From Blepharisma japonicum (taxonomy: Eukaryota; Ciliophora; Heterotrichea; Heterotrichida; Blepharismidae): 29,013 nt of DNA. The translations under genes were made by a program, and so were the position numbers. The notes under the pieces are model-generated. The model was not told the origin of the DNA. It searched no databases and saw only the letters and a list, made by a program, of their open reading frames with translations. Of this stretch, positions 1-27,883 are shown piece by piece. Numbering within the stretch: position 1 is the first letter of the stretch; each line of letters begins with the position of its first letter. The stretch is taken from the NCBI GenBank assembly GCA_949751835.1, contig CATKHK010000177.1, positions 1 through 29,013 on the forward strand, written 5' to 3'.

Positions 1-281
1 GACTCTTTCTCAACAATTCCTTATAAATTTGCAGAATATAAAAGAAAGATCCTGATTAATGCAGAGAGACTGTATTTGATTGAATGCGATAATGGATCCA
101 TCTATGAAAGCGAAATTGGAGGTTATATGGATTGGAGACAATAGGAAAATCAGCAATCAATCATCTTGGTCAAGTGTATTATTCATATAATAAAGGAGGA
201 ATATACATTGGCTGCGAAGATTCTTTAGATGCTGAATGCTTCAAGTTCGATTTGAATAAAAAGCTAATCAGTCAATTCTAA
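1..281 (+). pseudogene. 3' end of a Kelch-type gene, cut by the window edge and frameshifted
   Basis: The translation matches the last ~90 residues of the Kelch domains elsewhere in this window: a stretch with KILINAERLYLIEC and GSIYESE, then YNKGGIYIG, and the ending FKFDLNKKLISQF before TAA at 279-281. After the codons for MDWR (about position 138) the frame runs into TAG. The match resumes in another frame (TIGKSAINHLGQVYYSYNKGG), so one base seems to be missing in a short A run. This is either the tail of a pseudogene or a one-base sequence error in a real gene whose start lies left of the window. The closest relative inside the window is the decayed B-box/Kelch copy at 21790-22918, which shares the FDLNKK ending. 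Confidence 0.75.
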
Positions 282-2346: not shown

Positions 2347-2538
2347 AAATTTTTATTTAATAGATGCTTGCTTTAATCATAGTAAATAGATATAATTAAT
2401 TTTATATTATTAGCATTGCTATTAAATTTTTATAAAGCAAATTAAATTATTATCTAAAGTAAATAAATCACTTCATAATAATTCACCTACTCAAATCAAA
2501 GGAAAATTCTTTGCAAAGTAATAATAATAATAATAAAT

Positions 2539-3438
2539 ATGATTAAGCTTAAGTCAAAAGAACGGCAAGGGAATCCTAATGAAAGCAAATACTTGATTAA
2601 TTTATCAAGCAATTACAATAGCAAGGATATACTAATAAACATCATCGACTTAGACGCTATAAAAGAAAAAAAAAGATGCCTCAAACTTACAAGACCGACA
2701 AAATTTTATCCATCCATGATTCAATTGCCAAATAATCAATTGTTTTTTATTGGGTATTACTTTGGGACGAGAATATTTTCTGAAAATGATGCCTATGATG
2801 AATACTTTATATGCATTGCCGATTTTTTAACTGGAAAAATAAAAAGATTCACAAAAATGCATAAACTAGTCATTACTATATCTGGAATGATATATTGAAA
2901 GAATTCTGTTTATATCTACTTCTCTAATATTGAAGATGATGGCTTTAGCCTATGGAGATATGACTTAAATAGGCATAAATTAGCAAGACTAGCGACTTTC
3001 CCATTTGTGTTGCATTCGAGCAGTTGCATTTATTTTGAAGATAAAATATTGGTTGGACTTTCCTATTGTGACTATTGTGACATCTATTTATACGATTTAT
3101 ATGCAAACAGTTATTCTATGAATCGACTTGCACCTGGATATGGGACTATAATGCTTGCGTCAGGAAAAGCGAATGCTTATTATATAAAAAGTCGTGGGTA
3201 TATCTATGAAAGCGGATATAGGAATCCTTACGATTGGAATGGTGTTGGGGTTTCAATGTGGGAAGATTCTTTGCTATATATGATGTCATGGGCATATAAT
3301 AATGATTTGATATTTCTGAGAGAAAATAAAATTTTAGGAAGGAATTTGAAAGCAGATAATTCTTATTATGTGCTAAACTTAGGCACAAAAAATTTCAAAA
3401 GAAAAAATCTTTCCAAGATAAATTGCCATGTGTTTTAG
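2539..3438 (+). CDS. Kelch/beta-propeller-like protein, tandem copy B
   Basis: The frame of 300 codons gives 299 aa ending in TAG, with TGA at 2896-2898 read as Trp. It is a close duplicate of the preceding gene over its whole length, including both flanks. Where copy A has TGA in RNPYN-x-NSIG, this copy has TGG in RNPYDWNGVG, which is direct evidence that TGA means Trp. A tandem repeat of TATTGTGAC expands YCD to YCDYCD near residue 180. Most changes between the copies are substitutions that leave the frame open, so both are probably functional. No partner or pathway can be named. Confidence 0.8.
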
Positions 3439-5055: not shown

Positions 5056-5802
5056 TTATAAGTATTCTTCAAAAGCATAGTCATCAAGAACCATAGCGTC
5101 AACTCTTCTGATCATAAGCTCATCTTCATCTTTCATTTCTCTGATTTCCCTTGTGAGCTCTTTTGATCTTTCCACTATCTTATTAATACTATCATAGTCA
5201 ATCTCCCAGCTTGGGCTAGAATCGAATACTGACTTCACGATATCAAACACTGCTTCATACTTTTGCTCATCAATTTCATAGCTCAAATGTAACACATTTA
5301 AGTAGTCTTTCTCCATCTCATAAAGAACATAATCTGATAAATCATCGAAAAACAGCCCAAACTCATAATTGCTTATATGATTCTCGTTTGTGACCTTTTG
5401 AGAAATTAATGTTGCAGTGATTATGATTTTTTTTCAATTTTTTTTGAATAGTGGAATTTTTGATTCCTTCAAAAATTTTAGAGCATAAAAAAGCATACAT
5501 ATACAGCACTCTGCCCCAAAATTATGATATTGGTAAAGGCTGTATATAAATTTATATAATTTTTCTGAGGTTGGGTAATTATTTGGTAGGCTACTTGAGT
5601 AGGAAATTAAATGCTTGCTGTCAAAGAATAAATCGTGTGCAGATTTCAGATGTTCTGCTTTATTTTCTAAGTCTTCAATGATTTTAGCTTGCAGTATAAT
5701 TGAAGCACTAAAAGCTAAGTCATGAAGATAAGGATAAGAATTTATATTTCGATTTGAAAATTTTCCTGCTTCTATTGCAAACGTTTGGCTCAATAGTTTC
5801 AT
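5056..5802 (-). CDS. Cyclin-like protein (cyclin Y / PHO80-type cyclin box)
   Basis: The minus-strand frame encodes 248 aa with one TGA read as Trp (5434-5436). Residues ~90-190 fit a cyclin box of the PHO80/cyclin Y kind. AECCICMLFYALKFLKES matches the helix usually reading CxxxALIYLDRI, then IPLFKKNWKKIIITATLIS matches the xxNWRRxxLTAxLLASK helix, and YEFGLFFDDLSDYVLYEMEK-DYLNVLHL matches the LNxLExxFLxLLxF helices. The Trp of the conserved NW pair is the TGA codon. The C-terminus (~195-248) is acidic and charged. Such cyclins activate Pho85/CDK14-like kinases and often act at membranes or in nutrient signalling. The assignment rests on motif pattern, not on a search. No intron is needed to keep the frame open. 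A divergent gene relic starts 407 bases away at 6209. Confidence 0.65.
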
Positions 5803-6208
5803 GCTTTAATTATTAATTTGTTGGTTTTTTTTTAGTTTTGATATTTCGTATTAAAATTTGCAGATAAAAACAAAATGGTCGACAGAATTCGATTTTGTTG
5901 GGCAAAAGTTACAAAAAAGGGAGATTTAATTTAGAAATAAAAATTAATTTTTTTAAATGCTAGTTTTTATTTTTGAAGTGCTCTTATTAAATTTGAGCTT
6001 TTTATTTCTTCTGGATGGAGTGTTGAATTTTGTGTAAATAAATTATTTAATTTTATACTTCTGATTAAATAAAAAATTGATATTACAATATGACTAATCA
6101 GGTTAAAAGATCTTAAAAAATTTAGATTTTACATTAAAAGAATTTATTTATATAAAAAGTTGATCAGATACTTATATAAAAGTAGATAAAAATTAATTAA
6201 TACAAATT
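5803..6208. other. AT-rich divergent intergenic region
   Basis: About 400 bases of AT-rich DNA separate the starts of the minus-strand cyclin-like gene and the plus-strand kinase-Kelch relic. Promoters for both would have to lie here, but I see no distinct motif, repeat or RNA gene. Confidence 0.4.
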
Positions 6209-9285: not shown

Positions 9286-10302
9286 TTTTTGATGAGCATT
9301 TATTATAAATTATCCATCAACTGGGCTATTAGCTTATTTAAACTTAGTGAAATTAAATCTTAAAATTAAATGCATTAAGTGATTATTATTATAAGTCAAT
9401 CCAATCTATTTTTAATTTATAAAATGGAGTAGCATAGGGAACGCTAATTCTATCTCAACATAATAATCCACAAATATTCTCAAAGCGCATTAAATACCAA
9501 TTCTGAAGCAATTAATCTTGAATATCCATACTAGTTTTTGATTCAATTTTAGCATATTTTAATTTTGAATTTTTACTAATTTTTTCCAAGAGAGTCTCCC
9601 TAGCCTTGCAATTTTCAAAAATAAAATTGTTATATTTTAGCTTAAAAAATTTTAATTTACTTTCAAGTTGATGTTTAAAAGATGAGGAAATTATTATGCA
9701 GAAGAGAGCCGACTACTCAAAGGCAGATGGGATTGATAGCTTATTAATACTTTAAATTTTGCTAAATTCAGAAAGATTCAGTTTTTAATATTATTTGAAA
9801 TCAAGATTTTAAAATTCAGATTTGAGTTGGGATTGACATTACTTTAGAATTTTATGTAAACGAATCATTATTAAATGCTATATTTGTACTAAGATGCCTT
9901 AAGAGTTTTCTATAATTATTTGAGAATTTTTAAATAGCATTTGGTGTAAGATATTAAGGCAAGCTATTTTTGAGGCATAAACATAGAATTAAATACAGTT
10001 AACGTGCAATCTTATTTAAGAAACAACTCTCTGTATTATGTATAAATTATTCAAAAAAATCATTCACCTCAAAGAGAGGTTGGACACATTAAAATTCTAA
10101 ACAAAGAATTATACTCAAAAATTGAAAATTTTACAGATATTTTTTCTATTTGAAGTGAGTGTATAAATATTATCAATTCAATTTCAAAAGCTTAAATGTA
10201 AAAGAATTAAAGAAGGATGAATGCATAATCTATTAATAACTCTTATTATATAATCAATTAATATTAAAATTTATTAAATTTAAAAGCATCTCTAAAGATT
10301 AT
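9286..10302. other. 1-kb AT-rich intergenic region
   Basis: No gene is recognisable. One plus-strand frame near 9766-9915 is open for ~49 codons with TGA as Trp (contains WVGIDITLEFYVNESLL) between TAA codons; it matches no family I know and has no ATG. No RNA gene or repeat was seen. The last ~100 bases should contain the promoter of the MAPK-like gene. Confidence 0.4.
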
Positions 10303-11418
10303 ATGCTTGACAGTTTTTCTGTGTCTTGTTTAAATTATAAAGTTAAAATGGAAGTGCCAATCCCAAAAGGCAAAACAAAATTTGTCTCAAATCATATCAC
10401 ATTTATAGTAGATGATCGCTATGAGTACATCAAACAACTGAGCTCAGGCTCTTTTGATGCAATTGCCTCTGCTATCGACCACAAAACCAACACAAAAGTT
10501 GCTATCAAAAAAATTTCAAACATATTTCAAGATCTGATTGATGCAAAAAATACTTTGTGAATGCTGAAAATACTCCGTTTCTTGCATCACCAGAACATTA
10601 CTAATTTGCTTGATATCCAGCTTTCTCAATCAATATTTGGAAATAATGATATCTATATAGTTATTGACCTAATGGAAACTAATTTGCATAGAGTCCTTCA
10701 TTCTAGACAAGAACTTACTGGCGAACATATTCAATACTTTATGTATCAGTTGCTAAGAGGAGTTTGCTATATTCATTCAGCCAATATAACACATAGGAAT
10801 ATATCCCCAACTCATATTCTTCTCAACGAAAACTGCGATCTTAAAATTTCTGGGTGGGGCTTTGCGAGGAGCTGCATTGAAAATACTAATAATTTAGAAG
10901 AATATGTTGGTAACAGATGATATCGAGCACCTGAGATTCTGCTAAATTCCTTTAGAAATACAAAGTCGATAGATATATGGAGCTGCGGCTGTGTTTTCGC
11001 TGAAATTCTTGGAAGAAAACCAGTGTTTCCTGGCAAAAACTACCTTGATCAGATTAAAATAATAGTGGAAGTTTTAGGGACTCCTATTCTTGAAGATATA
11101 AGCTTCGTTACCAACTCAGCTGCTAAAAGATTTGTTAAAAGCCTTCCAAAAACTGAAAAAATAGAATGATCTGCTTTGTTTCCTATAGCAAGCACGGATG
11201 CGTTGAATTTGCTTGATAAAATGCTTGTATTTAGCCCTGAGAAAAGATGAACTGCAGAGCAGTGTTTAGCTCATCCTTATTTTCAAGATTTACACGAGTC
11301 TCAGGAAATTCTTGCAGATAAGCAATTTGATGCCAACTTTGATGATTTTGAGCTAACAAGAGACCAGCTATCTAATTTGATATATGAAGAAGTTCTCCAA
11401 TTCCATCCAGATAGATAA
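10303..11418 (+). CDS. MAPK/CDK-like protein kinase fold lacking catalytic residues (pseudokinase)
   Basis: The 371-aa product has the layout of an ERK-type MAP kinase: DRYEYIKQLSSGSF (glycine-rich strand, ~39-51), VAIKK (ATP-binding Lys, residue 69), YFMYQLLRGVCYIHSA, a catalytic-loop position, the activation segment, NRWYRAPEILLN (~204-215), IDIWSCGCVFAEIL and the C-terminal PEKRWTAEQCLAHPYF. Key residues are replaced. HRDLKPxN reads HRNISPTH (Asp166 to Asn, also Lys and Asn lost). DFG reads GWG (184-186). The MAPK activation motif TEY reads EEY (199-201), an acidic residue where the phospho-Thr would be. The glycine loop is also weakened. Four TGA codons are read as Trp, including the family-invariant Trp of RWYRAPE. 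Catalysis by the normal mechanism looks impossible; a scaffold or allosteric role is inferred. A shorter start at MEVPIPKG (residue 16) is possible. Confidence 0.88.
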
Positions 11419-11872: not shown

Positions 11873-12097
11873 AATTCTTAAATAAAGCTACAAAAAATTA
11901 TTATGGCTCGATTAATACTTTAGTGATATAATCGGGATAGAAACCTCATTTAACATTACTAGGTCCTATTTTCTTATATTCAATATTTTATTTAAAGCTC
12001 CAAAATTTAAATAAATTAAAAAATTGCAATATTTGGGAAATATATGAGGATATTAAATCTATTAAGACAAATTATCATCTAAAAATTTATTCATAAA
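11873..12097. other. AT-rich spacer upstream of a Kelch gene
   Basis: No coding or RNA signal seen. The region should hold the promoter for the gene starting at 12098. Confidence 0.4.
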
Positions 12098-13216
12098 ATG
12101 GAAATCAAAGTTGGAAATAAGATCAGTCTGCTTAGCTATAAACTCAATCCAATTTTAGAAACTCAAAATAATGAAGCAATAGACTCTCAAAGTTATCTCA
12201 ATCGCAATTCTAGTAATCAATTATTAACTCCTCAGCTGTTAAGAGCTAAAAAATCTTCCCTTTTGAGTGGGGCCAATAGTGATCCAGAAACTGAGTGAGA
12301 CTTCAGGAGAACTGTCTTGTCATATAAAAGTAATTTTAATTGAAATTCAGAGCTCAAAAATGCTTATAAAGAATATCTCGAAGCTTATCACCAAGCCAAG
12401 TCCCTTTATCTTACTATGAAAGTTAAAAAATGAACTGGCTTGATTATATTTGACTCAGAAAGTGAAACAGAAGATATGAAAGTTTTAAACACGCCCGAGC
12501 CATTAAGCAATGGTACATGTGTAGCACAGCTTCCTAATGCTGAGTTATTCTGTTTTGGTAATGATTTATTATCTGGGATTACAATGATAATTGATAAGAA
12601 CTTAAAAGCACGCAAGCTACCATCTGGAATGCCTTGCCACTGATCGTCAGCTATATATTTTAAGAGAAATGTATATTGCTTTGGAGGATTGTATAAGAGC
12701 TTTACTTTGGCTCTATCTTTTAGATATGATCTAGATGAAAATCGATGGGTAGAGCTACTTTCAATGCCTGAGCCTGATGATAGATGCAACAGCATAATTT
12801 TTAATGGGAATATTTGGATTTCTGGGTATATTAGTATGCACATTTGGCTGTATTCAATTGATCTCGATTCTTTCTCAAAAATCGATTGTGTCTTTGGAAA
12901 TAATGTAAGAAAGAATCTTATAGCTACAAACGGGAGAATGTATTTGATAAGTGTTTACTTTAATGTGCTGATTTATGAAAGCAAAGATGGATATGCTTGG
13001 GAACTAGTCTATGACAAATTAATAAGTCAAAAGCCTGTGCAAATAAATTGTTTGTATAATAAAGGGGGAATATATATAAGATGCTCGAACAAATATGAAG
13101 GCAACTATCATTTCAAATTTCATTTGCAGGAAAATGTGCTTTCTCAAATTTTTTGTGAGGATAGTGATTCTGAATGTGAATGAAACATTAACACTAATTT
13201 GCATCTTAGATTTTAG
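12098..13216 (+). CDS. Kelch-domain protein with a short disordered N-terminus
   Basis: A frame of 373 codons encodes 372 aa, ending in TAG at 13214-13216. TGA is read as Trp at 12296, 12431, 12641, 13181 and other sites; the TGA at 13181 is therefore not the end, and the tail NINTNLHLRF follows. Residues 1-85 are polar (Asn/Ser/Leu-rich) and lack zinc-finger or kinase motifs. Residues ~90-120 contain NAYKEYLEAYHQAKSLYL, matching the linker QAYQDYNLAYRQKTSLYI of the B-box protein. The Kelch part has FDSESETEDMKVL, LPNAELFCFG, IYFKRNVYCFGG, ENRWVELLSMPEPDDRC, IIFNGNIWISGY, YNKGGIYI and a C-terminal acidic patch EDSDSECE. It is thus a family member with a third kind of front end. Its cellular role is unknown. 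Confidence 0.85.
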
Positions 13217-16250: not shown

Positions 16251-16319
16251 CTATCTTAGCTATTTTTCGATTTTATAACAATTTAATATTATAAAATTAT
16301 AAAAATTAAATATTTTAAT

Positions 16320-16800
16320 TGCTATCAATTATTAAAGTATTCCAAGAAACTGGATAGCAATTGCTCCCGAAGGAGAATAGCTCACCATTTGGAAGTTTAG
16401 CAATGCATGTGATATAATTTAAAAATCCTGCAGGCTCTAAAACTTTCAACTCTTCTCTTTCACTTTCAGTGTCATAAATAATCAAATAGTTTTCTTGTCT
16501 GATCTATCAATAAGTTAAAGAGATACTATTTGATATAGGCTTTGACATATTCTTGATATGCTTGGGTCAATGGAAAATCAGAAACAGAATTCTGATTTCC
16601 ATATAATTTACATATTCTCCTAAAATCTTGCTCTGTTTTCAGGTTATTGGTTCTGTTTAAAATCACAGATGTTTTAGCTCTTAACTCTTCCATAGTCAGA
16701 ATTTGACCTACGAGATCTTGATTGGGTTGATTTATTGCTGGCTTTATTACGCTATTGAGATATATGTCTGAATTTCATTGAAAATTAAGCAAGCTAGCTT
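16320..16800 (-). pseudogene. Fragment of a coiled-coil/Kelch gene
   Basis: Reading the minus strand, MEELRAKTSVILNRTNNL, DFRRICKLYGNQ and PLTQAYQEYVKAY match the linker of the B-box/Kelch protein (LLQELRDKRVEILNKPND, KKFRKNC, IQQAYQDYNLAY). After a frame change near 16520 it continues YLIIYDTESEREELKVLEP and ITCIAKLPNGELFSFGSN, then stops at LIIDSN near 16320. The remaining Kelch repeats and the whole front end are missing. It sits directly beside the intact gene, suggesting a truncated local duplicate. Confidence 0.8.
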
Positions 16801-16827
16801 GATTTTTAACGTCTCATGAAAATAATA

Positions 16828-17443
16828 AATTGTATTGCTCAAATGCTCAAAAGGATTATATCTTCATGAAACAACTATCAATCACTCTATAATAATTAAT
16901 AAGAAACCGATGAGTAACTCCCGAGCTTATCTAATTAACTGCATAGCGGAGAGAAGAACCCTGCTAAAAATTTCTAGATTGAAGGCTCTATCAGAGGAAA
17001 ATGCTACAGATTGGGAATCTGCAAAAAAAATCACCCAAATGTGGATTTGAGGCAAATTCTGATATTTCATTTTGAAAATACTTCTCATTCATGGATTTCT
17101 GTAATTATTTAATTAATAAAATTATGTTTATAATACAAGTGATTATTTTCGTAAATTAGCATTTCAAAATCAATGCTTATGAGACCAATGAACATTCAAA
17201 AAACCTAAAATATATCGTCAAAAATTATTGGAATTAACAAGATGATTTCAGTTGAATAATTAAGAGGGAGAGAATTGTCAATTTCAAACGGCAGATTTAT
17301 TAATAATATTCTATGGACATTTGCAGCCCTAGCTTTGGCTAAATAAGTGTATGGCTATATAAACTATATTGATCAATTGATATAATTTTTAAAATTAATA
17401 GCCAAAGAGTATTAAAAGAGAACTATGCATTAAGCCACTTATT
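16828..17443. other. Conserved 3' flank of the B-box/Kelch gene, no assigned gene
   Basis: This region is duplicated at 23003-23526. On the plus strand a frame starting with TTG at 16835 is open for 71 codons (contains INCIAERRTLLKISRLKAL); in the other copy the same frame is cut by TAA after INCIASA and shifted, so a conserved protein is unlikely. The stretch TTTGCAGCCCTAGCTTTGGC near 17310 is unchanged in both copies. No tRNA or known RNA is recognised. Confidence 0.45.
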
Positions 17444-18514
17444 TTAAACTAGCCACTCTAATATCTTTTCTTTCAAATTAAACTTGAAGTATGCAATGTC
17501 ATCACGGTAACAATAAGCAATGTTTATTGCTCCTTTGTTGTATATGAGATATATTTGATTAAAATTATCAATTATTGAATGTCCAATCCTTCTCCAGACA
17601 GAGTCATTTGAAACCTCACTTTCATAAACTGATCCACCACATTCAATTAAATATGATCTCTCTGAATTTATTAGAATTTTGTCTTTCTTAATGGCAAAAT
17701 CATAAGGAATTGTCACGAAAGTGTTGCTAACAATTGAATATCGCAAAAGATTTTTATTTTTATATCCAGAAATCAAAATATTTCCATTAAATATTATATT
17801 TGTGCAGCTGTAATCAGCTTGCGGCAGTTGCTTTAACTTAATCCATTGCTTTTTATTCAAATCAAATCTCTCTGATAAAGTTAAAGCACGTTCATTGTAT
17901 CCTCCAAAGCAATAAACACTATTATTGAAATAGATAGATGATGAAACAGAGCATGGAATTCCAGATGGCAGATGTTGAATTATATAATTCTTGTCAATTA
18001 TCAAGCAAATGCCAGAAATAGGGATGTCACTACCAAAACAAAATAAATTGCCACCAGGCAGTTGAGCTATACATGTGTATTTGTTTAATGGTTCAGGAGT
18101 CTCTAACACTCTGACTTCTCTGCTTTTTCTTTCTGTATCATAAATGAACAAATTAGTTTTGTCATTAACTTGATTAATAATATAAAGTGATGTTTTTTGA
18201 CGGTAAGCAAGGTTATAATCTTGATATGCTTGCTGAATAGCTGAGTTGTTCATTCAGGTATGGCTTTTGTAGATTAAGCAATTTTTCCTAAATTTTTTTT
18301 CTAATTGTGGGTCATTTGGTTTATTTAAAATTTCTACTCTCTTGTCTCTTAATTCTTGAAGTAGATTTTGACTGTTTATAAGCTCGCTGATTTTTTTGAG
18401 ACCTTGATTTCTCTTGATTATTTGAGAATTATTTTGATCCATCTCATTTTCCATTTTTGAGTTTATTTCTTCTTTTAAGTTTTCGAGATTTTTGCAGCTT
18501 TTTTTATTCTCATT
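16828..18514. repeat. Segmental duplication, copy 1
   Basis: Similar along nearly its whole length to about 23003-24600. It covers ~0.6 kb of DNA beyond the 3' end of the B-box/Kelch gene, the whole Kelch coding part, and the linker up to the codons for NENKKSC. At 18514 similarity stops abruptly. Compared with copy 2 it has a 99-base insertion at 17040-17138 and lacks small insertions. Confidence 0.85.
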
Positions 18515-19543
18515 GTTTAGATTAGAAATAGTATCTTTGATGTTTGCTAATTCATTACCCATTGATTCAATAATCTTTTTATGCTCATCATTATTTGAAT
18601 TGATAGCTTTATTGTACTCTTTAAGAGTATTTTCTATGTAAGAAAATCTTTTACTTAAACCTTCAAATTTGTTATTACTTGAACATGTAGCTTTATTGTA
18701 CTCTTCAAGGATATTTTCTATGCTAGAAAATCTTCTACTTAAATCTTCAAATTTGTTATTGCTTGAATTGGTAGATTTATTGTACTCTTCAAGAGCATTT
18801 TCTATATTAGAGAATCTTGTATTTAAAATATCAAATTTGTTATTGCTCAAATTTGCAGCTTTATTGTGCTCTTTAAGGGTATTTTCTATGCTAAAAATTC
18901 TTTTATTTAAAGCTTCAAATTTTTCATTGCTTGAAATGGTAGATTTATTGTACTCTTCAAAAGTATTTTCTATACTGGAGAGTCTTTCATTTAAATAAGT
19001 TTGAAATTTGTCTTCGATAAAATGCCCAATCATTTTTTCAATTTTTAAGTTGAGCCCGCAAAATAATCTTGCATTGCTGTACAATTCTTGGTTAGCTGGG
19101 ATAATTTTTTTTAATTTCTCAATAGCTTCATCAGGCTGTAAACTCAGTAACCCTATAATAGGATCTTGCTCTGATTTTGATAATTTTTGAATTTGAGAAA
19201 TCTTTGTAAAATAATTGCTTAGCTCAGCTGAATTTGAATCCAAATCTTTTAAGAGTCCTTCAATGTCGCTCTCTGATTCAATCAAGCGTTGACTAAAGGA
19301 TGCTAGTATCTTTTCCTTCAGCTTGCTATTTTTTGACTGCTCTTTTGTAAAAAATCCGAGAATCGCTTCTTTTGTCCCTTTGCATGGTTCTACAAAAATT
19401 CTCTCAAAATCATGAGCCTTATCAGGCTGGGCTAAATGCTTTCCAAAATGCTTTTCACAGGATAAAATTTTAGGAGAATCGCATGGGCATGCATACATAA
19501 CCTCACGCTTGCACCCTTTCTCGAAACATTGCATAAGCTCCAT
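17444..19543 (-). CDS. B-box-like zinc finger / coiled-coil / Kelch protein
   Basis: A 2,100-base frame encodes 699 aa with one TGA (18254-18256) as Trp. Residues 6-44 form C-x4-C-x7-C-x-C-x7-C-x2-H-x3-H-x7-H, the spacing of a B-box-type zinc finger. Residues ~60-185 are helical. Residues 187-326 are five 28-residue coiled-coil repeats (consensus RFSxIENxLEEYNKSTxSSN plus NKFExLSK). Residues ~340-425 are more coiled coil and linker, with QAYQDYNLAYRQKTSLYI at ~436-453. The rest is the Kelch domain: LPGGNLFCFGSD, IYFNNSVYCFGG, KKQWIKLKQLP, IIFNGNILISGY, GSVYESEV, KFNLKEKILEWLV. The zinc finger-coil-propeller order recalls TRIM-type scaffolds but there is no RING, so ubiquitin-ligase activity is not implied. 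Oligomerisation through the coil and target binding through the propeller are inferred. Confidence 0.88.
18566..18985 (-). repeat. Five in-frame 84-base repeats inside the B-box/Kelch gene
   Basis: The motif AGC/ATTTATTGTACTCTT recurs at 18605, 18689, 18773, 18857 and 18941, a strict 84-base period. Each unit encodes 28 residues (four heptads), so unit number can change without breaking frame or coil register. The outer units are the most divergent. Confidence 0.92.
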
Positions 19544-20667
19544 ATAATTATTATAATTTTATCTTATTATAGTTAAATTTTAGTTATATGCTTTGATTAT
19601 ACTAAAGCTAATTAAAATTAATTCAGTCTTTAAGATTCATAAGCATTTATTGGCTTGATTTTTAGTAATTAAAAGCTCATTTCTTGCATTTTTTTATATG
19701 TTTTTGCTTATTAAAATGAGAATATTTTTTGCAATTTTTATGTGATTTTTATTTCATGTCTTTAGTGTTGCTTAATTTTTAAATTTAATTTATAGTGTTT
19801 GCAATAAATATAATGTTCACTATAAGTTTTTATATTTATTTTACAAGTTTCACAATCTATAGATTCTGTGCATCTTTCTAATCATCTCAATTTTTGATAG
19901 CATAAAATGCCATTGCTTGGCATTTTCATGGCATAAAATGTTTTTAAGTGCTTGAAAAATACTTTTCATTGATTTATGTGCTCTTTGAAAAATATTTAAC
20001 TTTAATTTTTATTTTGCAAGTGTCTAAAACAACTTAATTTGAAAAAATATGTTACAAATTAGTCCATAAGAATACGAGAGCCATAGAATTTATTAAATCC
20101 AGAATTATCATAATTTTTAATTCAATAGATGCAAAATCAATCCTAAAAAAAATGTCTTTTAACTGTAGGAAAGCTAATAGAACTATTAATTTGACAGAGT
20201 TTATATAACAACTTTGATAAATTCATTTAAAAATATCCATTTTAAATATTAAAATTGAATAAATTGCTTTTAAGCTTGATCCAGATAATATAAGCAATTT
20301 ATTTATTAATTTTTTATGCTATTTGAATTTTAGAATAAGAAGAAGTCATTCACATAAGAAAATATTAGAAATATCCAGCAACTTACTTTAATTTTTCTAT
20401 CTATAAACTTGAGAGTAGTTTTAAACTTTACATTTCCAAGGAGTTTGATCTATCAATTATTCTATCAAAGAAGATAATTATTTTCAATAAATGCTTGCAC
20501 CCTAGCATATATAAATATTTATTGAGTTTTTATCTATTTAATCATTTTCATGCTTTTAATTTTATGAATTAAAGAGCATACTATCATATATAAATTTAGC
20601 TAGAAAGAAAATCATTTTATCATATCAGTGCAGTTTCCATTTATTCTGTTCTGACTAGTTAAAATAA
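19544..20667. other. 1.1-kb divergent intergenic region
   Basis: Lies between the starts of the B-box/Kelch gene (-) and the second Rab gene (+), so both promoters should be here. It is very AT-rich. On the minus strand a ~77-codon frame near 19760-19995 has cysteine and histidine pairs (CTESIDCETCK, EHYIYCKH), but it lacks a clear start and stops are as frequent as chance on either side. No RNA gene or repeat recognised. Confidence 0.4.
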
Positions 20668-21222
20668 ATGGAAAAGGAATAGTAATATCAAAGTAGCGAT
20701 CATGTTTTAAGAGTTGTCTTAATAGGAGACTCTGCTGTTGGCAAATCATGCATCACGCATCGATTTGCTGATAATACCTACAACACGAGCTACTTATCCA
20801 CTGTAGGGGCTGATTTTGTAAAAATCATATAGAAAATTTCAATCATTTGTCGAAACGACTTGAACATAAAACTTATAATTTGGGACACAGCTGGACAAGA
20901 AAGATTTAGAGACATTGCTCTCAGTTACTATAGCGGTGCTAATGGATTCATAATCGTATTTGATGTAACCGACGCAGAATCATTTCGTTCCCTTTCCAAT
21001 AGGATAAATGATATTGATAATCATGCCTCAGCAAGAAAATCAGTCATTATAGTAGGAAATAAAGCGGATTTAGAAGCAGCAAGAAAAGTCTCATTTGATG
21101 AAGCCAAGAATTTTGCTGAAGGAAATGGAATGGGATATATAGAGGTTTCAGCAGCAACAGGGCACAATATACATCAGGCCTTTGAGTTAATTATCAGAGA
21201 GATGATTTCTAAGCTAACTTAA
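20668..21222 (+). CDS. Rab-family small GTPase with two 15-nt introns
   Basis: Exons 20668-20681, 20697-20817 and 20833-21222 join to a 174-aa protein. It opens [23 protein letters not shown], a classical Rab start with an intact P-loop (GDSAVGKS). Switch I is [10 protein letters not shown], switch [22 protein letters not shown], the guanine-binding motifs GNKADL and EVSAAT. With both introns removed the spacing between ADF and WDTAGQ equals the Rab standard. All GTPase residues needed for nucleotide binding are present, including the Gln of DTAGQ. The C-terminus ends EMISKLT without cysteines, and the hypervariable tail is nearly absent, so it should lack the prenyl anchor of typical Rabs. 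This makes a soluble or partner-tethered role more likely. It is related to the more divergent GTPase at 595-1149. Confidence 0.93.
20682..20696 (+). other. 15-nt intron 1 of the Rab gene
   Basis: GTAATATCAAAGTAG. Unspliced, the frame meets TAG and TAA at once; spliced, it gives [15 protein letters not shown] as in canonical Rabs. Confidence 0.88.
20818..20832 (+). other. 15-nt intron 2 of the Rab gene
   Basis: GTAAAAATCATATAG. It carries an in-frame TAG. Removal joins VGADF to KISIICRN and gives exactly 16 residues between DF and WDTAGQ, the usual number. Confidence 0.9.
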
Positions 21223-21789
21223 GTTTGAATTGAGCATAGATATTATATTGTTCTCGTATTACAGGGTAAATGTAAAGAAAAGATTACCATATAGAATAAA
21301 CTTTATAAGTAAATTCAGTTTCAAAATGTCATAAAACTCAATTTTTTTCTTAGAATATTTCTTGAAAGTTCTATATATAAGCTAAATTAATTCAAATATA
21401 ATCGGAGTGTACAAACTTTCCTGGTTAAAAAAGAAATTAATAAATTTACCGTATAAGTCTATTTAGATTATTGACTTAAGATTATGAAAGATTAAACTGT
21501 AGATCAATATTTATTGGCAAGCCGCAATCACGTATCTCTCCAAATTTTAGGTTTAAATATCATTTTGATAAGTAATTATTCGTGCATTAATTCGGATAAA
21601 TTACTTTTGCCAAAAAATCCTGAAGAAATCGAAATCTGATATTATTATATTAAAATTCATTAACATTTTTACCAAATAAACTGTAAGGATAAAGACTTTT
21701 AACTTTAAATATAAGGAATGAAAGAGCTATAGAAGTTTTTTAAAGCAATCTCGAACGTTAATACGTAAGAATACCTAATTTATGGATCT
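21223..21789. other. Intergenic region between convergent genes
   Basis: AT-rich. A plus-strand frame near 21501-21660 is open for ~50 codons (contains ASRNHVSLQILGLN and LLLPKNPEEIEIW) between TAA codons. It has no recognisable family and no intact start. Nothing else is evident. Confidence 0.4.
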
Positions 21790-22918
21790 TGCTAATTGAT
21801 TTTTTATTCAAATCGAACTTAAGACATTCGTAAAAATGCCTTCCTCGTTAATGGATCTGATGCCAATATATATTCCTCCTTTATTATATGGCCAATATAC
21901 TTGATCATACCTTTGACCTATTTTTGAGTCTGCTATTCGCGTTACTTCCAATTTCGCTTGAATTTATCAGAATCTTTCTATTATTCTCTCCGAACTCATA
22001 AGGAATCGTTGAGAAAGAGTTATTCTCAATTGAGTATAATAAAAATTTCTGTTATTATGTCCAGAAATCAAATATTCCATTGCATATTATACTTGCATCA
22101 AAAATCAGCTCTTGGCATTGGAGTTAATTGAATTCATTGATTTTGATCCAAATCAAATCTGCTCGACAGGGTTAATTGACCATTTTATATTTCTTCCTCC
22201 AAAGCAATAGATGCTGTTATTGAAATAGATACATGATGATTCTATGCAAGGAGTTCCAGATGGTAACACTTCGACTCCACCATTTATATCAATTAGCACT
22301 GTGATCCGAGAAAATAAGCAACTACCAAAACAGAGCAAATTGCCATTTGGAGTTGAGTTATGCAAGTGCCTGTGTCTAGAAATTCTGGAGTCTGCAAGAC
22401 TTTAATTTCTTCTTGGTTTTCAGTTTCAGTGTTATAAATGTAAAAATTAGTGCTGTCATTCGAAGTCTTTTGTAATATTATAAAGAGATGTTTTTTGTTT
22501 GTAAGCCCATAAGACAATCTTGATAAGCTTGCATTAGCGATGGATTAAACAGACTCGAATTCTTCTGATATTCAGAACAAGTTACTCTAAAACCATTTCT
22601 AATTCTGGATTATTTGGTCTACTCAAAATCTCAGCTGTTTTATTTCTTAAGGTGTTGATCAAATTTAAATCACTTTCTGTTTCTTTGAGTTCGCTGAATT
22701 TTGAATTCTCTTTTGGAAGGAATTCAATAATTGTGCCCTGTTGTCTCTTCGCAAGTCTGCATAAGTATTAATTCAAGGTTATGAGCTCTATTAGGCAAGC
22801 TTATATGCTTTTCGATATGTGCTTCGCAAGATAAAGTCTCAGGAGAAGAGCATGTGCATGAATATCCAACCTCATTCATACACCCTAGCTCAAAGCATTT
22901 CTTTGCTATCATATACAT
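21790..22918 (-). pseudogene. Decayed B-box/Kelch gene without its coiled coil
   Basis: From ATG at 22918 the minus strand encodes the B-box-like finger with the same spacing as the intact gene (CFELGC, YSCTC, SCEAHIEKH, AHNLELI). Almost at once the frame is lost and the whole 28-residue repeat region is missing. Fragments follow in changing frames: LMQAYQDC, IYNTETENQEEIKVLQTPEF, TPNGNLLCFGS, EVLPSGTPC, IYFNNSIYCFGG, ENNSFSTIPYEFGENN and the end FDLNKKSISKI near 21790. It is an old duplicate of a B-box/Kelch gene; its C-terminus is closer to the partial gene at the left window edge than to 17444-19543. Confidence 0.85.
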
Positions 22919-23002
22919 AATTATTAGATAGATGGCTTTTAAATCTATTTGCATTCTAGAAATTATGATTTTTAAACTAATTTAAATATATTGCTAAAAA
23001 TG

Positions 23003-24600
23003 TTATTGCTCCAATGCTCAAAAGGATTATATCTTCATGCAACAACTATCAATCAGTCTATAATAATTAATAAGAAAGCGATGAGTAACTCCTGTACTTG
23101 TCTAATTAACTGCATAGCATCCGCATAACGTGGAGAGAAGAACCCTGCTAAAAATTTCTTGATCGAAGGCACTATCAGAGGAAAATGCTACAGATTGGAC
23201 ATCTGCAACCAAAAATCACCCAAAGTGATTATTTTTCGAAAATTTGCATTTAAAATCAATGCTTATGAAACCAATGAACATTTAAAAAGCCTAAAATATC
23301 GTCAAAAATTATTGGAATTAACAAGATGATTTAAGTTGAGTAATTCAGCGGGAGAGAATTGTTAATTTCAAACGGTAGATCTATTAATAATATTCTATAG
23401 ACGTTTGCAGCCCTAGCTTTGGCTAAATAAGTGTATGGCTATATAAACTATATTGATCAATGATATAATTTTTAAAATTAATAGCCAAAGAGTAATAAAA
23501 GAGAACTATGCATTAAGCCACTTATTTTAAACTAGCTGCTCTAATGTTTTTTCTTTCAAATTAAACTTGAAGTATTTAATGTCACCACCGCAACAATGTG
23601 CAATGTTTATTGCTCCTTTGTTGTATATGACATATATTTGATTAAAATTATCACGTATTATTGAATCTCCAATCCTTCTCCAGACAGAGTCATTTGAAAC
23701 TTCACTTTCATAAATTGATCCATTTCAACATTCAATTAAATATAATCTCTCTGAATTTATTAGGATTTTTCTTTTCCCATTGGCAAAATCATAAGGAATT
23801 GTCACGAAAGTGTTGCTAACAATTGAATATCGCAAAAGATTTTTATTATTCTTTCCAGAAATCAAAATATTTTCATTAAATATTATATTCATGCAGCCAA
23901 AATCAGCTTGCGGCAGTGGCTTTAACTTAATCCATTGCTTTTCATATAAATCAAATCTCTCTGATAGAGTTAAAGCATTCTTGCTGCATCCTCCAAAGCA
24001 ATAAACACTATTATTTAAATAGATAGATGATGAAGATCAACATGGAGTTCCAGATGGCAGATGTTGAATTTTATAATTTTCGTCAATTATTAAGCAAATG
24101 CCAGAAATATCACGATTGCCAAAACAAAATAAATTGTCGAAAGGCAGTAGAGCTATACATGTGCCAAAGTCTAATGTTTCAGGAGTCTCTAGCACTCTGA
24201 CTTCTCTACTTTCTCTTTCTGTATCATAAATAAGCAAATTAGTTTTGTTATTAACTTTTTGAATACTATAAAGTGATGTTTTTTGACGGTAAGTCCGGTT
24301 ATAATCTTGATATGCTTGCTGAATAGGTGGGTCGTTAATACAGGTATGGCTTTGATAGACTGAGCAATTTTTCCTAAATTCTTTTTCTAATTCTGGGTCA
24401 TTTGGTTTATTTAAAATGTCTAATCTATTGTCTCTTAATTCTTGAAGTAGATTTTGAGGGTTTATAAGCTTATTGATTTTTTTGAAATCTTTATTTATAT
24501 CGATTATTTGAGAATTAATTTGATCCATCTCATTTTCCATTTTTGAGTTTATTTCTTCTTTTAATTTTTCGATATTTTTGCAGCTTTTTTTATTCTCATT
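23003..24600. repeat. Segmental duplication, copy 2
   Basis: Counterpart of 16828-18514. It holds the 3' flank, the Kelch domain and the linker of the kinase gene. Similarity ends at 24600, where the kinase-specific coil begins. The flank (23003-23526) has no gene of its own; relative to copy 1 it has a short insertion in the ATAGCATCCGCATAACGTGG stretch and lacks 99 bases after 23224. Confidence 0.85.
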
Positions 24601-25587
24601 TATTATTCCGTTTAAGCGAGCTATTTCTGCTCTAAGTCACTCAATTTCATTTTTTTGAACCATGTTCTCTTTTCTATATTCAAATAACTCCTTTTCAAGC
24701 CGTTCATTTTTTTCCCTTTCGTTTTTGAGTTGAATTTGGCAAATAGTTGCATTCATTGTAGATGTTTGTGGAATTTTAATGCCTAAGCTTAAAGTTTTGT
24801 TGACTATAAACTCATGAGCTAAGATATTAAGTATTGTTGGCCTTTCTGCTCTCTTCTTTTTTAAGCACCTATCAATGAAATCTCTTAGTTCATCTGAGTA
24901 TTCACTTCTTATTGGCACATGAGGATCATATTTTATTTTATTCACATTATCGCCAAAAGGATGTTCAAGGTTGCAGAGATAATATAAAATGCAGCCGACG
25001 GCCCAAACATCACTTTCTTTGGCTTGAGTGCCTCCACTATGAGATCTAGGAGACTGGTAAGCAGAAACCCCTTGAATTGTTTTTGTCGGCAAAGAGCGAG
25101 AAATGCCAAAGTCAGCTATTTTGATGTCTTTGTTTTCGTCTAAAAGGATATTTTGTGGATGAAGATCTCGATGAATAAATCCGTTGTAGTGCAAAGACTC
25201 GAGCCCAAAGCAGATCTGGATAAAATATTTTCAGATTTCGTCTTCTTTAAAGAGTTCATGAATGTGAATCTTGTCAGCTATGGCTGTAAGAAGGTCGCCA
25301 TTTCCACAATAATCTATGACCATAAAGAAAGTATTGCCACTCACAAAAAAGCTATCTAAGCGAAGCTTATATGGATTGGCCCATGAAAGTACTTGAATCT
25401 CAGTTTCAATGTCCTTCCAGCTTGACCCTTTGATAGCTCTGATGACAGCCTTCATTGCATAAATTTTTTGATTGCCTGAATACAAATTACTTCTCTTTAT
25501 GACTCTATAAATAGTTCCATATCCTCCAAAGTTAAGATGATCCTTAACTTCAAAAACATTTGTTAGCTCTTCAGGAAAAAGTGACAT
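23527..25587 (-). CDS. Protein kinase / coiled-coil / Kelch fusion protein
   Basis: A 2,061-base frame encodes 686 aa, with TGA codons (25231, 24637, 24037 and others) read as Trp. Residues ~13-275 are a Ser/Thr kinase domain: FGGYGTIYRV glycine loop, AMK with Lys46, HRDLHPQN (139-146), ADFGIS (158-163), SDVWAVGCILYYL, and ERPTILNILAHEF near the end. The catalytic Asp141 and DFG are kept. The Lys two after it in HRDLK is His143, and the APE motif reads SPR. Residues ~295-390 are charged coiled coil (NEREKNERLEKELFEYRKEN). From ~405 the Kelch domain follows (YDTERESREVRVLETPE, LPFDNLFCFGN, IYLNNSVYCFGG, FNLKEKTLEQLV). From residue ~330 onward it is nearly the B-box protein at 17444-19543. A kinase directed to targets by its propeller is the inferred role. 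Confidence 0.88.
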
Positions 25588-25934: not shown

Positions 25935-27883
25935 ATGGGCTGTGCTTTAAATTGTATTTGATAATATCAGACTTCAACACGTCAAGTGTTAAAATCGATT
26001 TCAGAAGAGTCATATGGTCACTAAGTTCAGCTGTAGCTGAGAAAAATGCAAGATTCTTTGATTACTTTATCTCTAGAAAACCTTAAAAATATCCTCGGAA
26101 AATGTAGAACCGTCCCGACCAATATTGCAAAAGCACTAAAAGTGATTAACAAAGCAGGATCAGCCCAAAGAAGCCTGCCTTAGAAAATAGAATATCTTTA
26201 ATCCTTGGAAAATATAAAAGACAGAGCAATAAATCTTGCTGTGGATCAACACGAAGTGCAGCATTATCTAAAAGACCTCATTTTGAACTCAGAAAGATGT
26301 GCAGTAATGCTGGAGAGATGGCGCGGACAAGGACTAATTACTCTGTTGAGGAAAAAAGCAGATTTACTTGAAGGCGATCTCAATAAAAGAAAGTTGAAAG
26401 ACGCATATTTCTTAGCGTCTGATTTGGAAAAACTTAAAGAAAAATCTATAATAGAAGCTGATAATTTAAAAAGCAAATTAAGTGCTGCTACTAATGAAAA
26501 TTTAGATTTAAAATCAGAAACTCAAAGATTGAGTCTAAAATGTAGTGATTTAGAGAAAAGGCTTAGCTGAAACTGTCAGAAGTTCAAGTTTGCAAATGAA
26601 AATTGAAGAACTCAACAATCGAATAAACGGTTTAGAGAGTAAAGGAAAAGATTTAAGTGATAAAAATAATAATCTCAAAAAAAGTGCAGTCACTTGAAGA
26701 GCAAATACGCATTTCTAAAGAGGAAAATTCAATACTTCAATCAAAATTTTTAGAGCTCCTCTCAGAACAGAAGAAATTAGAGGAAAAATTGTTAGATTCA
26801 TCAAAAGAAATTGAATATTATATATTGCAAGCAGCACAACTTGATGCAAAAGTAAAAGAATTGCAAGGCAGCTTGGTATTATCGGAGGAGGACAATCAAT
26901 TTTTTGAAGGACGCATAGTGAAGCTGAAAGAAGAGATAAAAGAAAAAGATTCTCAGATTGATCAGCTAAATAATGGAAATAAAACACTTGAAAAGGAAAT
27001 TTCGGCTGTGAAACTTCTTCTTGAATATGAAATTCAGTCAAACAAAATCTTAACAGAGGAAAATCGATTTTTTGAAGGGTGCATAAAGAAAATGAATGAA
27101 GAGATAAAAGAAAAGATTCTCAAATTGATCAGCTAAATAATGGAAATAAAGCACTTGAAAAGGAAATTTCAGCTGTGAAACTTCTTCTTGAAAATGAAAT
27201 TCAGCCGAACAAAATCTTAACAGAGAACAATCGAATTTTTGAAGAATGCACAAAGAAGCTGAATGAAGAGATAAAGGAAAAAGAGTCTCAGATTGATCAG
27301 TTAAATAGCGGAAAAAAAGTATTGAAAAGATAATTTCGGATATAAGATTTCTTCTTGAAATGAAATTCAGTCACACAAAACCTTAACAAAGGCAAATGAA
27401 TTTAAACACCAAGAAGAGATTGACAAAGTTGCCCAATACTTTGAGAAAGTCAAGGACTCTGAGCTGCAGAGCTGTAAGAAAGTCTTCTAAAAAGAAAAGA
27501 TTTCAATCATCGGAAAATTCAGCATTGTTGTTGCTGCAATCAAAAATGTAAATGGAGTCAAAAACTCTGTTTTTCGCCAACTAAAAGCTGATATGAATGC
27601 CATTAGAGACAACTTACTGCAAGTTCAAGATTTTGTCAATGATTTTCTCACAAAAGAAATGAAAAATCTAATCGATCAAATAGAATATATGAACTCGAAA
27701 AACAAAATTGATACTGATTGGTATGCTAATCAAAACAAATTAAAGTTTGAATCTGCAGCTGAAGAGATCAAGGAAAATTTATTGAGCTTTGAAGAGCAAT
27801 GAGCTGAAGGTCTTAAAGAGTATCGCAATATGGGAAAATATGAGCTTGAGTCATTCGAAAAAAAAGAAAAATGCTTTAGCTAG
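25935..27883 (+). pseudogene. Coiled-coil protein with a helical-bundle-like N-terminus, frameshifted
   Basis: Coding is clear but split over frames. It may start MGCALN (an acylation-like N-terminus) at 25935. After an early change come WSLSSAVAEKNARFFD, then SLENLKNILGKCRTVPTNI and AKALKVINKAGSAQ, a break near 26186-26205, and an intact run ENIKDRAINLAVDQ ... YLKDLILNSERCAVMLERWR to ~26560. The pattern (L...C..LLERW...G......L..K.DLLEGDLNKR) recalls four-helix bundles such as the plant MCAfunc or MLKL-type domains; this is inference. A long coiled coil follows with three ~56-residue repeats. An intact C-terminal helical part runs from ~27505 to TAG at 27881 (contains VAAIKNVNGVKNSVFRQLKA and FEEQ-Trp-AEGLKEY with TGA as Trp). 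Breaks near 26560, 26680, 27110, 27325 and 27358 mostly sit in A runs, so decay or uncorrected homopolymer errors are both possible. Confidence 0.7.
26880..27385 (+). repeat. Three 168-base repeats in the coiled-coil gene
   Basis: TTTTTGAAG recurs ending at about 26908, 27076 and 27243, a period of 168 bases (167 where one A is missing). Each unit encodes about 56 residues with KLKEEIKEKDSQIDQLNNGN and LEKEISAVKLLLE. The frame is kept in unit 1 and lost in units 2 and 3 by single-base losses in A runs. Confidence 0.85.

Follow-up and report, generated by a model that had tools for sequence, protein, structure and literature searches.

In TRIM proteins, a RING domain lies N-terminal to a B-box, the zinc box and a coil are followed by a variable C-terminal binding domain, and loops of TRIM5 are under positive selection. 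NEK8 and NEK9 join a protein kinase to an RCC1 propeller, and the targets of diversity-generating retroelements combine a template repeat and A-specific variation with a reverse transcriptase. In HNWD-type NLR/STAND receptors of Podospora, N-terminal domains are swapped on near-identical following domains, and the beta-propeller repeats show diversifying selection at the surface of interaction (PMC4986451). Among Kelch proteins, the BC and DA loops of KLHL20 shape the substrate surface (PMC6720452), and the positions of K13, KEAP1, KLHL2, KLHL3, and KLHL12 that are most conserved between orthologues cluster in the BC/DA-loop pocket (PMC6650413). In Tetrahymena, the LRR genes with 90-bp exons form a large, young family with ectopic recombination and some protein kinase fusions, and the ratio of nonsynonymous to synonymous substitution rates (Ka/Ks) mostly indicates purifying selection (PMC6564038). 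A kinase and a Kelch domain are found in one protein in the membrane kinase Tb927.5.3150 of Trypanosoma brucei (PMC8519429), Entamoeba kinases with Kelch are mentioned (PMC2939887), and a trypanosomatid kinome table contains one T. brucei kinase with Kelch. Here, we describe two genes of the ciliate Blepharisma japonicum in which different N-terminal heads, a zinc head and a protein kinase, are joined to the same Kelch module. They are located in a stretch of 29,013 nucleotides (nt) (assembly GCA_949751835.1, contig CATKHK010000177.1; hereafter the window), which is a whole contig (C177) of a genome of 45.19 Mb in 224 contigs.

Both genes contain in-frame TGA, and they form single frames of 699 and 686 residues, respectively, only when TGA is read as tryptophan. 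Conserved tryptophan columns of the kinase and Kelch families hold TGA in some copies and TGG in others, and the TGA at 18256-18254 of the zinc gene was therefore read as sense; a premature stop or pseudogene at this codon was rejected. The genome carries arrays of the telomere sequence CCCTAACA, three repeats of which matched it 77 times in forward and 91 times in reverse orientation. UGA as tryptophan, CCCTAACA telomeres, and introns of 15-16 bp have been described for Blepharisma stoltei, and the word "kelch" is absent from that article (PMC9942806). The genetic code and the telomeres accord with a Blepharisma-like heterotrich. The features of the two genes, with the Kelch type that they share designated alpha, are as follows.

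17444..19543, minus strand: zinc gene, encoding a zinc head, a coil, and a Kelch domain (699 residues, one frame with TGA as tryptophan)
18541..19543, minus strand: zinc head of type I (zinc-I), with the pattern C-x4-C-x7-C-x-C-x7-C-x2-H-x3-H-x7-H, and coil with a repeat period of 84 nt
18540..18549, minus strand: inferred crossover of the zinc gene, TAGCAAACAT, from comparison with the parent types
18257..18514, minus strand: alpha linker of 86 residues, from alignment of copies
17447..18256, minus strand: predicted alpha Kelch propeller of 270 residues, from Pfam, a structure model, and Foldseek
16800..17443, minus strand: 3' non-coding flank accompanying the alpha Kelch, from genome-wide flank matches
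23527..25587, minus strand: kinase gene, encoding a kinase, a coil, and a Kelch domain (686 residues, one frame with TGA as tryptophan)
24601..25587, minus strand: NEK-like protein kinase head and coil, predicted from the Pkinase match, the nearest structure, and motifs
24593..24605, minus strand: crossover of the kinase gene, the 13-nt TAATAAATGAGAA, from comparison with the parent types
24343..24600, minus strand: alpha linker of the kinase gene, from alignment of copies
23530..24342, minus strand: alpha Kelch of the kinase gene (Kelch_1, 21.0 bits; cut-off, 20.1)
22966..23526, minus strand: 3' non-coding flank of this Kelch, from the pair alignment and genome-wide flank matches

The best local DNA alignment of the two genes paired 18514..16800 with 24600..22966 on the minus strand, and 1465 of its 1749 columns were identical and 148 were gap columns. 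This block, which an indel interrupts around 17147-17028, covers the linker (86 residues), the Kelch (270 residues), and some 0.6 kb of non-coding DNA on the 3' side. Identity was 97% over the first 60 columns from the head-side edge, and the 200 nt upstream of this edge aligned at shuffle level (score of 10.0; mean of 12.5 and standard deviation (sd) of 4.7 in 300 shuffles). The downstream end was equally abrupt (score of 3.0 vs 1.9 for shuffles, sd 5.0). Chance similarity as the source of the block was ruled out by the alignment scores. The two modules differ by about 10% in DNA. The Kelch copies are 78% identical, with nonsynonymous (dN) and synonymous (dS) divergences of 0.124 and 0.143, respectively, and the 3' non-coding DNA differs by 0.047 over 234 aligned positions. 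The dN/dS of 2.09 for the linker rests on 2 silent changes only and was not used as support.

An earlier note on this DNA, made from the sequence alone, had described a shared block of 1.6-1.7 kb with the linker, the whole Kelch, and about 0.6 kb of non-coding DNA, and had proposed an alignment of both genes in which a gradual decay would count against a junction. The alignment bears out this block and its abrupt end, and the head-swapped Kelch pair is real. The note had also placed the junction of both genes at the block edge. Position 18514 is indeed where the kinase gene ceases to match, but the crossover of the zinc gene itself is at about 18549-18540. The 28-residue unit at the junction, described there as zinc-finger/coil sequence, is a coil-like direct repeat (period of 84 nt, over 18506-19009) outside the Cys/His-rich part. 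The name B-box for the zinc head found no profile support: the window zinc protein had no Pfam match to B-box (PF00643) at E<=1, and the list of 25 families obtained with 18 zinc heads did not include it. The note considered the order of kinase, coiled coil, and Kelch in one protein unusual; the combination of a kinase and Kelch has precedents in T. brucei (PMC8519429) and Entamoeba (PMC2939887).

The kinase head matched Pfam Pkinase at 1.1e-45 and has the motifs AMK, HRD, and DFG at residues 44, 139, and 159, respectively. By these catalytic motifs, it is assigned to the active-type protein kinases, with activity predicted, and its nearest solved structure is NEK1 (1.7e-31). Among the zinc heads, there are eight Cys/His positions with complete or almost complete conservation. 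RING had no Pfam match in the window zinc protein, a profile search of PDB with the zinc head gave six weak, unrelated matches, none of them convincing, and a single-sequence structure model of this head, with a predicted local distance difference test score (pLDDT) of 49, was not used. Neither BTB nor NACHT/NB-ARC was among the Pfam families listed for the two window proteins and ten relatives (two of the lists being the best 25 families). The Kelch of the zinc gene had Pfam matches above cut-off to Kelch_6 (1.3e-6; 28.7 bits, cut-off 25.3) and Kelch_1 (5.1e-5; 23.1 bits, cut-off 20.1), and these repeats, together with the propeller fold of the model described below, place it among the predicted Kelch propellers.

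A genome-wide search for the Kelch module yielded at least 144 scored matches from 1064 first-look candidates. Because the searches score only part of the candidates, all family counts are lower bounds. For 143 of the 144 rows (the second piece of the C149 gene was excluded), heads at most 1.6 kb upstream on the same strand were paired using all 150 listed zinc rows, all 51 U-box rows, 31 of the 122 kinase rows (mainly those listed best), and 38 of at least 152 WW matches, namely those listed that cover the WW domain. Zinc, WW, kinase, and U-box heads were found upstream of at least 74, 16, 9, and 3 Kelch matches, respectively, and no listed head was found for 41. As controls, heads on the opposite strand and downstream were found for 6 and 15 of the 143, respectively. 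For the U-box (8.5e-19) and WW (5.2e-7) heads, Pfam verified one sequenced example of each; in the U-box example (L079), the U-box, which does not occur in the window genes, is in a single frame with the linker and the Kelch start. Of 60 Kelch matches that had no listed head in a first pairing, twelve were read upstream. Besides the examples with U-box and WW, one with a divergent zinc head and others with a short head or none were among them, and the N-termini of two, L077 and L085, resemble leftovers of the kinase head. Upstream of the Kelch of L074 and L075, a common stretch with many stops precedes an open coil and linker; a head may have been lost there or may lie in another frame.

Heads also occur with tails other than Kelch. 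No Kelch was listed within 1.6 kb of 76 of the 150 listed zinc heads. In C88, a zinc-I head and alpha linker run into TPR repeats with a ZZ domain in the continuation (L072), and C138 has a kinase, a zinc head, and TPR within one open stretch of 834 residues. The 3' flank of about 640 bp was found in 26 pieces. Of these, 22 mark separate loci, in full or in part, two are second pieces, and two are scraps at contig starts (C10:4-196 and C103:1-48) that were set aside. The alpha Kelch lies beside it in 22 of 22 loci; it was listed in 20, and C156 and C143 carry it on reading, the latter as a truncated fragment. Contig extent was known for 73 of the 143 Kelch matches, and on contigs longer than 100 kb, 36 of 57 matches were within 20 kb of a contig end vs about 8 expected; since contigs break inside the Kelch family, subtelomeric enrichment is not claimed. 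No paper on a swapped-head Kelch family was among the matches listed from the open-licence literature.

A Kelch-only tree was built from 37 rows and 270 columns, excluding rows with fewer than 250 filled columns, zI_C67b (wrong gene), w22195, and kinD_C40. On this tree, the three head labels require 9 changes against a minimum of 2, and the approximately unbiased (AU) test rejected a single clade for zinc-I-borne Kelch (p 1.4e-39) and for kinase-borne Kelch (p 8.9e-12). A single origin of the kinase/Kelch pairing, judged from the Kelch, was thus rejected. The head labels are still clustered on the tree (0 of 200 shuffles gave as low a number), indicating that head exchange was occasional and not random. 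Zinc-I heads are joined to alpha Kelch in C177, C103, and C19. In C98 and C170, they are joined to a Kelch that groups within the kinase-borne clade designated gamma (99/89 and 100/98), which also includes the Kelch of C121, a gene with a zinc head of type II (zinc-II). Kinase heads are joined to alpha Kelch in C177, C87, C156, and C67, and also to gamma Kelch; therefore, all four combinations exist. In the head tree, the zinc-I heads fall into a single clade (100/99), and their tails are of three kinds. In the kinase-head tree, in which two of the four alpha-bearing heads were long enough to be included, those of C177 and C87 group at 96/98, nested among gamma-bearing heads, and one gain of alpha is therefore possible.

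The joints can be compared with surviving parent types. TAGCAAACAT is present in the zinc-I/gamma genes C98 and C170 (left parent type) and in 11 of the 12 zinc-II/alpha genes examined (right parent type, e.g., C221). TAATAAATGAGAA is shared by all 4 of the kinase/alpha genes, by C36, C97, and C7 among the 8 kinase/gamma genes, and by 8 of the 12 zinc-II/alpha genes. The switch of the kinase/alpha genes lies within TAATAAATGAGAA, and that of the zinc-I/alpha genes is some 30 nt upstream of it, within TAGCAAACAT. Because the alpha and gamma linkers are related, the kinase/alpha joint may represent homologous recombination at the linker start as much as microhomology. The zinc-I/alpha sequence of C88 gives way to a copy of the adjoining TPR-ZZ gene, 93.4% identical over 1.4 kb. 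The C88 fusion and the donor-type gene lie side by side (L041:1420-3564 and L041:2-1318, respectively). In C138, the kinase head, 85.3% identical to the window kinase over 990 nt, is followed in frame by sequence resembling the 5' leader of C67, a zinc-TPR gene, from 17 nt ahead of the ATG of that gene, and C31 has a kinase that ends a few codons past the same boundary. The frame is open across the joint, with no stop, in 31 of the 37 genes with a head and module, counting C88 for the linker only.

The trees, the four-combination test, and the crossovers between surviving parent types thus support an exchange of heads on a common Kelch module. The proposal in the earlier note that heads are recombined onto a common propeller therefore has genome-wide support, and the genome search and domain table that it had suggested place zinc, WW, kinase, and U-box heads upstream of matches to this Kelch module. 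Its term for the process, segmental duplication, fits less well: the exchange is real, but ectopic recombination between paralogues with occasional non-homologous fusion describes it better.

Variability was examined in 17 alpha genes (kin_C156, kin_C67, zII_C196a (broken), C39, and C143 were excluded), and it was concentrated in patches of the Kelch.

17501..18175, minus strand: overall span of the hypervariable loop patches, from column variability; the limits include some less variable residues
18175-18161, 18082-18077, 18028-18017, 17950-17945, 17899-17885, 17812-17807, 17764-17759, 17689-17687, 17572-17558, and 17515-17501, minus strand: patches

Across one set of 11 zinc-II/alpha genes, none of the 188 zinc-head columns had an entropy of at least 1.9, compared with 1 of the 82 linker columns and 24 of the 269 Kelch columns. 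In a cross-validation in which hypervariable columns were defined on half of the 17 genes and tested on the other half, the proportion of amino-acid-changing differences (pN) was 0.52-0.53 in these columns vs 0.04-0.06 in the scaffold, where the proportion of silent differences (pS) was 0.08-0.09. The heads are under purifying selection, with pN/pS of 0.47-0.56 for zinc and 0.37 for kinase. The alpha Kelch thus has hypervariable patches on a nearly invariant scaffold.

We consider it likely that the two window genes belong to a large ciliate family in which a Kelch cassette has been joined repeatedly to different heads, forming a recognition repertoire with exchangeable effector heads. The C-terminal cassette would comprise the coil/linker, the Kelch propeller, and the 3' flank of about 640 bp, joined in frame to varied N-terminal heads by recombination between paralogous genes, mostly within the A/T-rich coil. 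The variable face would bind diverse targets, the coil would bring protein copies together by oligomerisation, and the head (kinase, U-box, zinc box, and WW or TPR partner) would supply the output, so that a head swap would couple a target specificity already present to a new output, or an output already present to a new specificity. Possible targets are non-self, mating-type, or clonal self molecules. Such a family may constitute a modular signalling system, and because parent types and recombinants coexist in one genome, the assembly of new signalling proteins is directly readable. A bolder form of this reading, which we put forward only tentatively, is an immune-like or self/non-self system without LRR, NOD, or immunoglobulin parts, in which at least 143 Kelch recognition modules have loops driven to diversify, possibly by local conversion or mutation, and outputs (kinase, ubiquitin ligase, zinc box, WW, and TPR) rewired by head swapping.

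A number of observations, in this paragraph and the next, weigh against a recognition repertoire with exchangeable heads. The 41 Kelch matches without a listed head may be headless, and a nearby head need not share a frame with the Kelch. Frame breaks between the head and Kelch occur in 6 of the 37 genes, and at least two more genes, C103 and C106, are cut short inside the Kelch; part of the family therefore consists of pseudogenes or has unmodelled tiny introns. Within the alpha Kelch clade, most branches are unresolved, and the four kinase-borne copies are not together, with weak support. The joints might also be assembly chimeras of near-identical repeats, given that contigs begin or end within family genes at almost one place (C16/C189 and C156/C67), where the assembly breaks. 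We regard this as very improbable: the same kinase/alpha joint occurs in four copies, C87 and C177 are 89.9% identical along the head and Kelch, which is not expected of a misjoin, the two window modules differ in about a tenth of their DNA, and most frames are kept.

The patches raise further difficulties. The amino-acid/silent ratio of the whole Kelch is near 1 (0.87-0.96). The pS of the hypervariable columns themselves is 0.30-0.42, so that their pN/pS is only 1.3-1.8, and selection on point mutations alone is therefore insufficient to explain them. Silent variation is raised at and beside the patches: third positions differ, with positions 1 and 2 agreeing, in 30.5% of pairs at patches vs 5.8% in the scaffold (including third positions that change the amino acid), and same-residue pairs of the scaffold have a silent difference of 0.087 at 1-2 codons from a patch vs 0.033 beyond 10. 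These values and the frame breaks in several copies would suit a family in which head exchange is real and the patches are unconstrained surface loops, without a recognition role, of expanding and partly decaying genes. This is unlikely in view of the patch pN, about six times the scaffold pS, and of the scaffold, which is under purifying selection (ratio of 0.46-0.69). In addition, a neutral star simulation at the family pS gave a mean of 0.48 hypervariable columns (maximum of 3 in 200 runs) vs 24 observed, and the mean was 3.6 (maximum of 11) at a 1.5-fold higher mutation rate. The position of the patches also argues against unconstrained loops, as the AB/CD loops (43 residues) have no hypervariable residue. 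In the modelled propeller, 22 of 25 hypervariable residues are in BC/DA loops, none in AB/CD loops, and 3 in strands under strict strand limits (p 3e-5), the strand roles having been assigned after the variable columns were seen, so that p values for the loops are only indicative; with looser limits, 24 of 25 are in BC/DA loops. The seven-sequence AlphaFold model is of middling confidence (pLDDT 67; predicted template modelling score of 0.61), and its top Foldseek match, KLHL12, had a probability of 1.00 but a template modelling score of only 0.38, with KEAP1, KLHL20, and a designed Kelch also among the best. We infer from this model that the patches probably lie on one face of the propeller.

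In addition to plain selection, the raised silent change suggests gene conversion acting locally, a local increase in mutation, or loop variants that are old. It would agree with loop variation generated by a local process, either gene conversion between loop variants or raised mutation of a diversity-generating-like kind, with selection secondary. That this process predominates also seems improbable to us, because codon positions 1, 2, and 3 differ at 0.60, 0.55, and 0.37 in the patches (0.045, 0.036, and 0.061 in the scaffold), with positions 1 and 2 thus varying more than 3, and because the variable codons use all bases and are not confined to A, unlike those of retroelement-driven diversification. 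In a test like the pairwise homoplasy index (PHI), the alpha Kelch showed no decay with distance (391 of 500 permutations were as low), and recombination inside the alpha Kelch, for which this test was not significant, was rejected. A recognition repertoire with exchangeable effector heads remains our preferred reading.

Other genes and fragments related to the Kelch family occur in the window, one of them directly downstream of the kinase gene.

21865..22900, minus strand (the strand of both genes): decayed or intron-broken relative with a short zinc head, a divergent Kelch, and broken frames

The contig opens within an alpha-like Kelch (1-275, plus strand), and downstream of the zinc gene there is a fragment of linker and Kelch (16318-16717, minus strand). 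On the plus strand, 1417-2346 and 2482-3438 are tandem, headless, divergent Kelch-like genes with 92-95% DNA identity in repeated stretches; their pN and pS are 0.065 and 0.061, respectively, with silent change not in excess of amino-acid change, and the first copy had no Pfam match at 0.001. A further headless member of the family, a Kelch protein whose N-terminus is short, is encoded at 12083-13216 (plus strand); it had no Pfam match at 0.001 either. The window also contains Ras-family GTPase genes at 619-1149 and 20833-21222 (plus strand), a protein kinase gene at 10240-11418 (plus strand), and a gene for a cyclin-like protein at 5056-5805 (minus strand). At 26888-27318 (plus strand), direct repeats are spaced by 168 and 167 nt in apparently coil-forming sequence, and the one-base difference would shift the frame.

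Among the described systems, the NEK kinases include the nearest solved relatives of the kinase head, but the window protein has Kelch where NEK8 and NEK9 have RCC1. The window zinc gene resembles TRIM in its order of a zinc box, a coil, and a variable C-terminal binding domain; it differs in having no RING, no Pfam match to B-box, and a Kelch tail, and a kinase or U-box can replace the zinc box. The variable Kelch codons use all bases, which argues against the A-specific change seen in the targets of diversity-generating retroelements. The family is, like the Tetrahymena LRR genes, a large shuffled ciliate family with kinase fusions; whereas shuffling there involves exons, the Kelch heads are joined in the coil without an apparent intron. 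The kinase-Kelch proteins of T. brucei and Entamoeba are single proteins, and no shuffled family is mentioned in the available parts of the respective articles (PMC8519429, PMC2939887).

The family shares with the BTB-Kelch adaptors a predicted Kelch propeller, the presence of KLHL12, KEAP1, and KLHL20 among the best Foldseek matches, and a putative BC/DA binding face, but it has no BTB among the listed Pfam matches, and its BC/DA loops, as modelled, are the most variable part. Known Kelch propellers are most conserved in the substrate-loop pocket, whereas here the loops appear to be most variable and the heads are conserved. This contrast with KEAP1, the KLHL proteins, and K13 is between orthologues there and paralogues here; it is therefore suggestive and not like for like, and this mismatch likewise weighs against our reading. 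Variable loops with interchangeable enzymatic heads resemble fungal receptor families, and no such ciliate repertoire was among the literature matches listed. As in HNWD receptors, N-terminal domains are swapped on similar following domains. In contrast to these, the Kelch family has Kelch instead of WD40, no NACHT/NB-ARC among the listed Pfam matches, and kinase, U-box, WW, and zinc heads. Its variation is seen between paralogues. Diversification in HNWD is on the interaction surface; the Kelch has hypervariable patches, but their placement on one face comes from a middling model, and their own-column pN/pS is only 1.3-1.8. The family is best read as one that would resemble the HNWD receptors in its logic without being a member of them.

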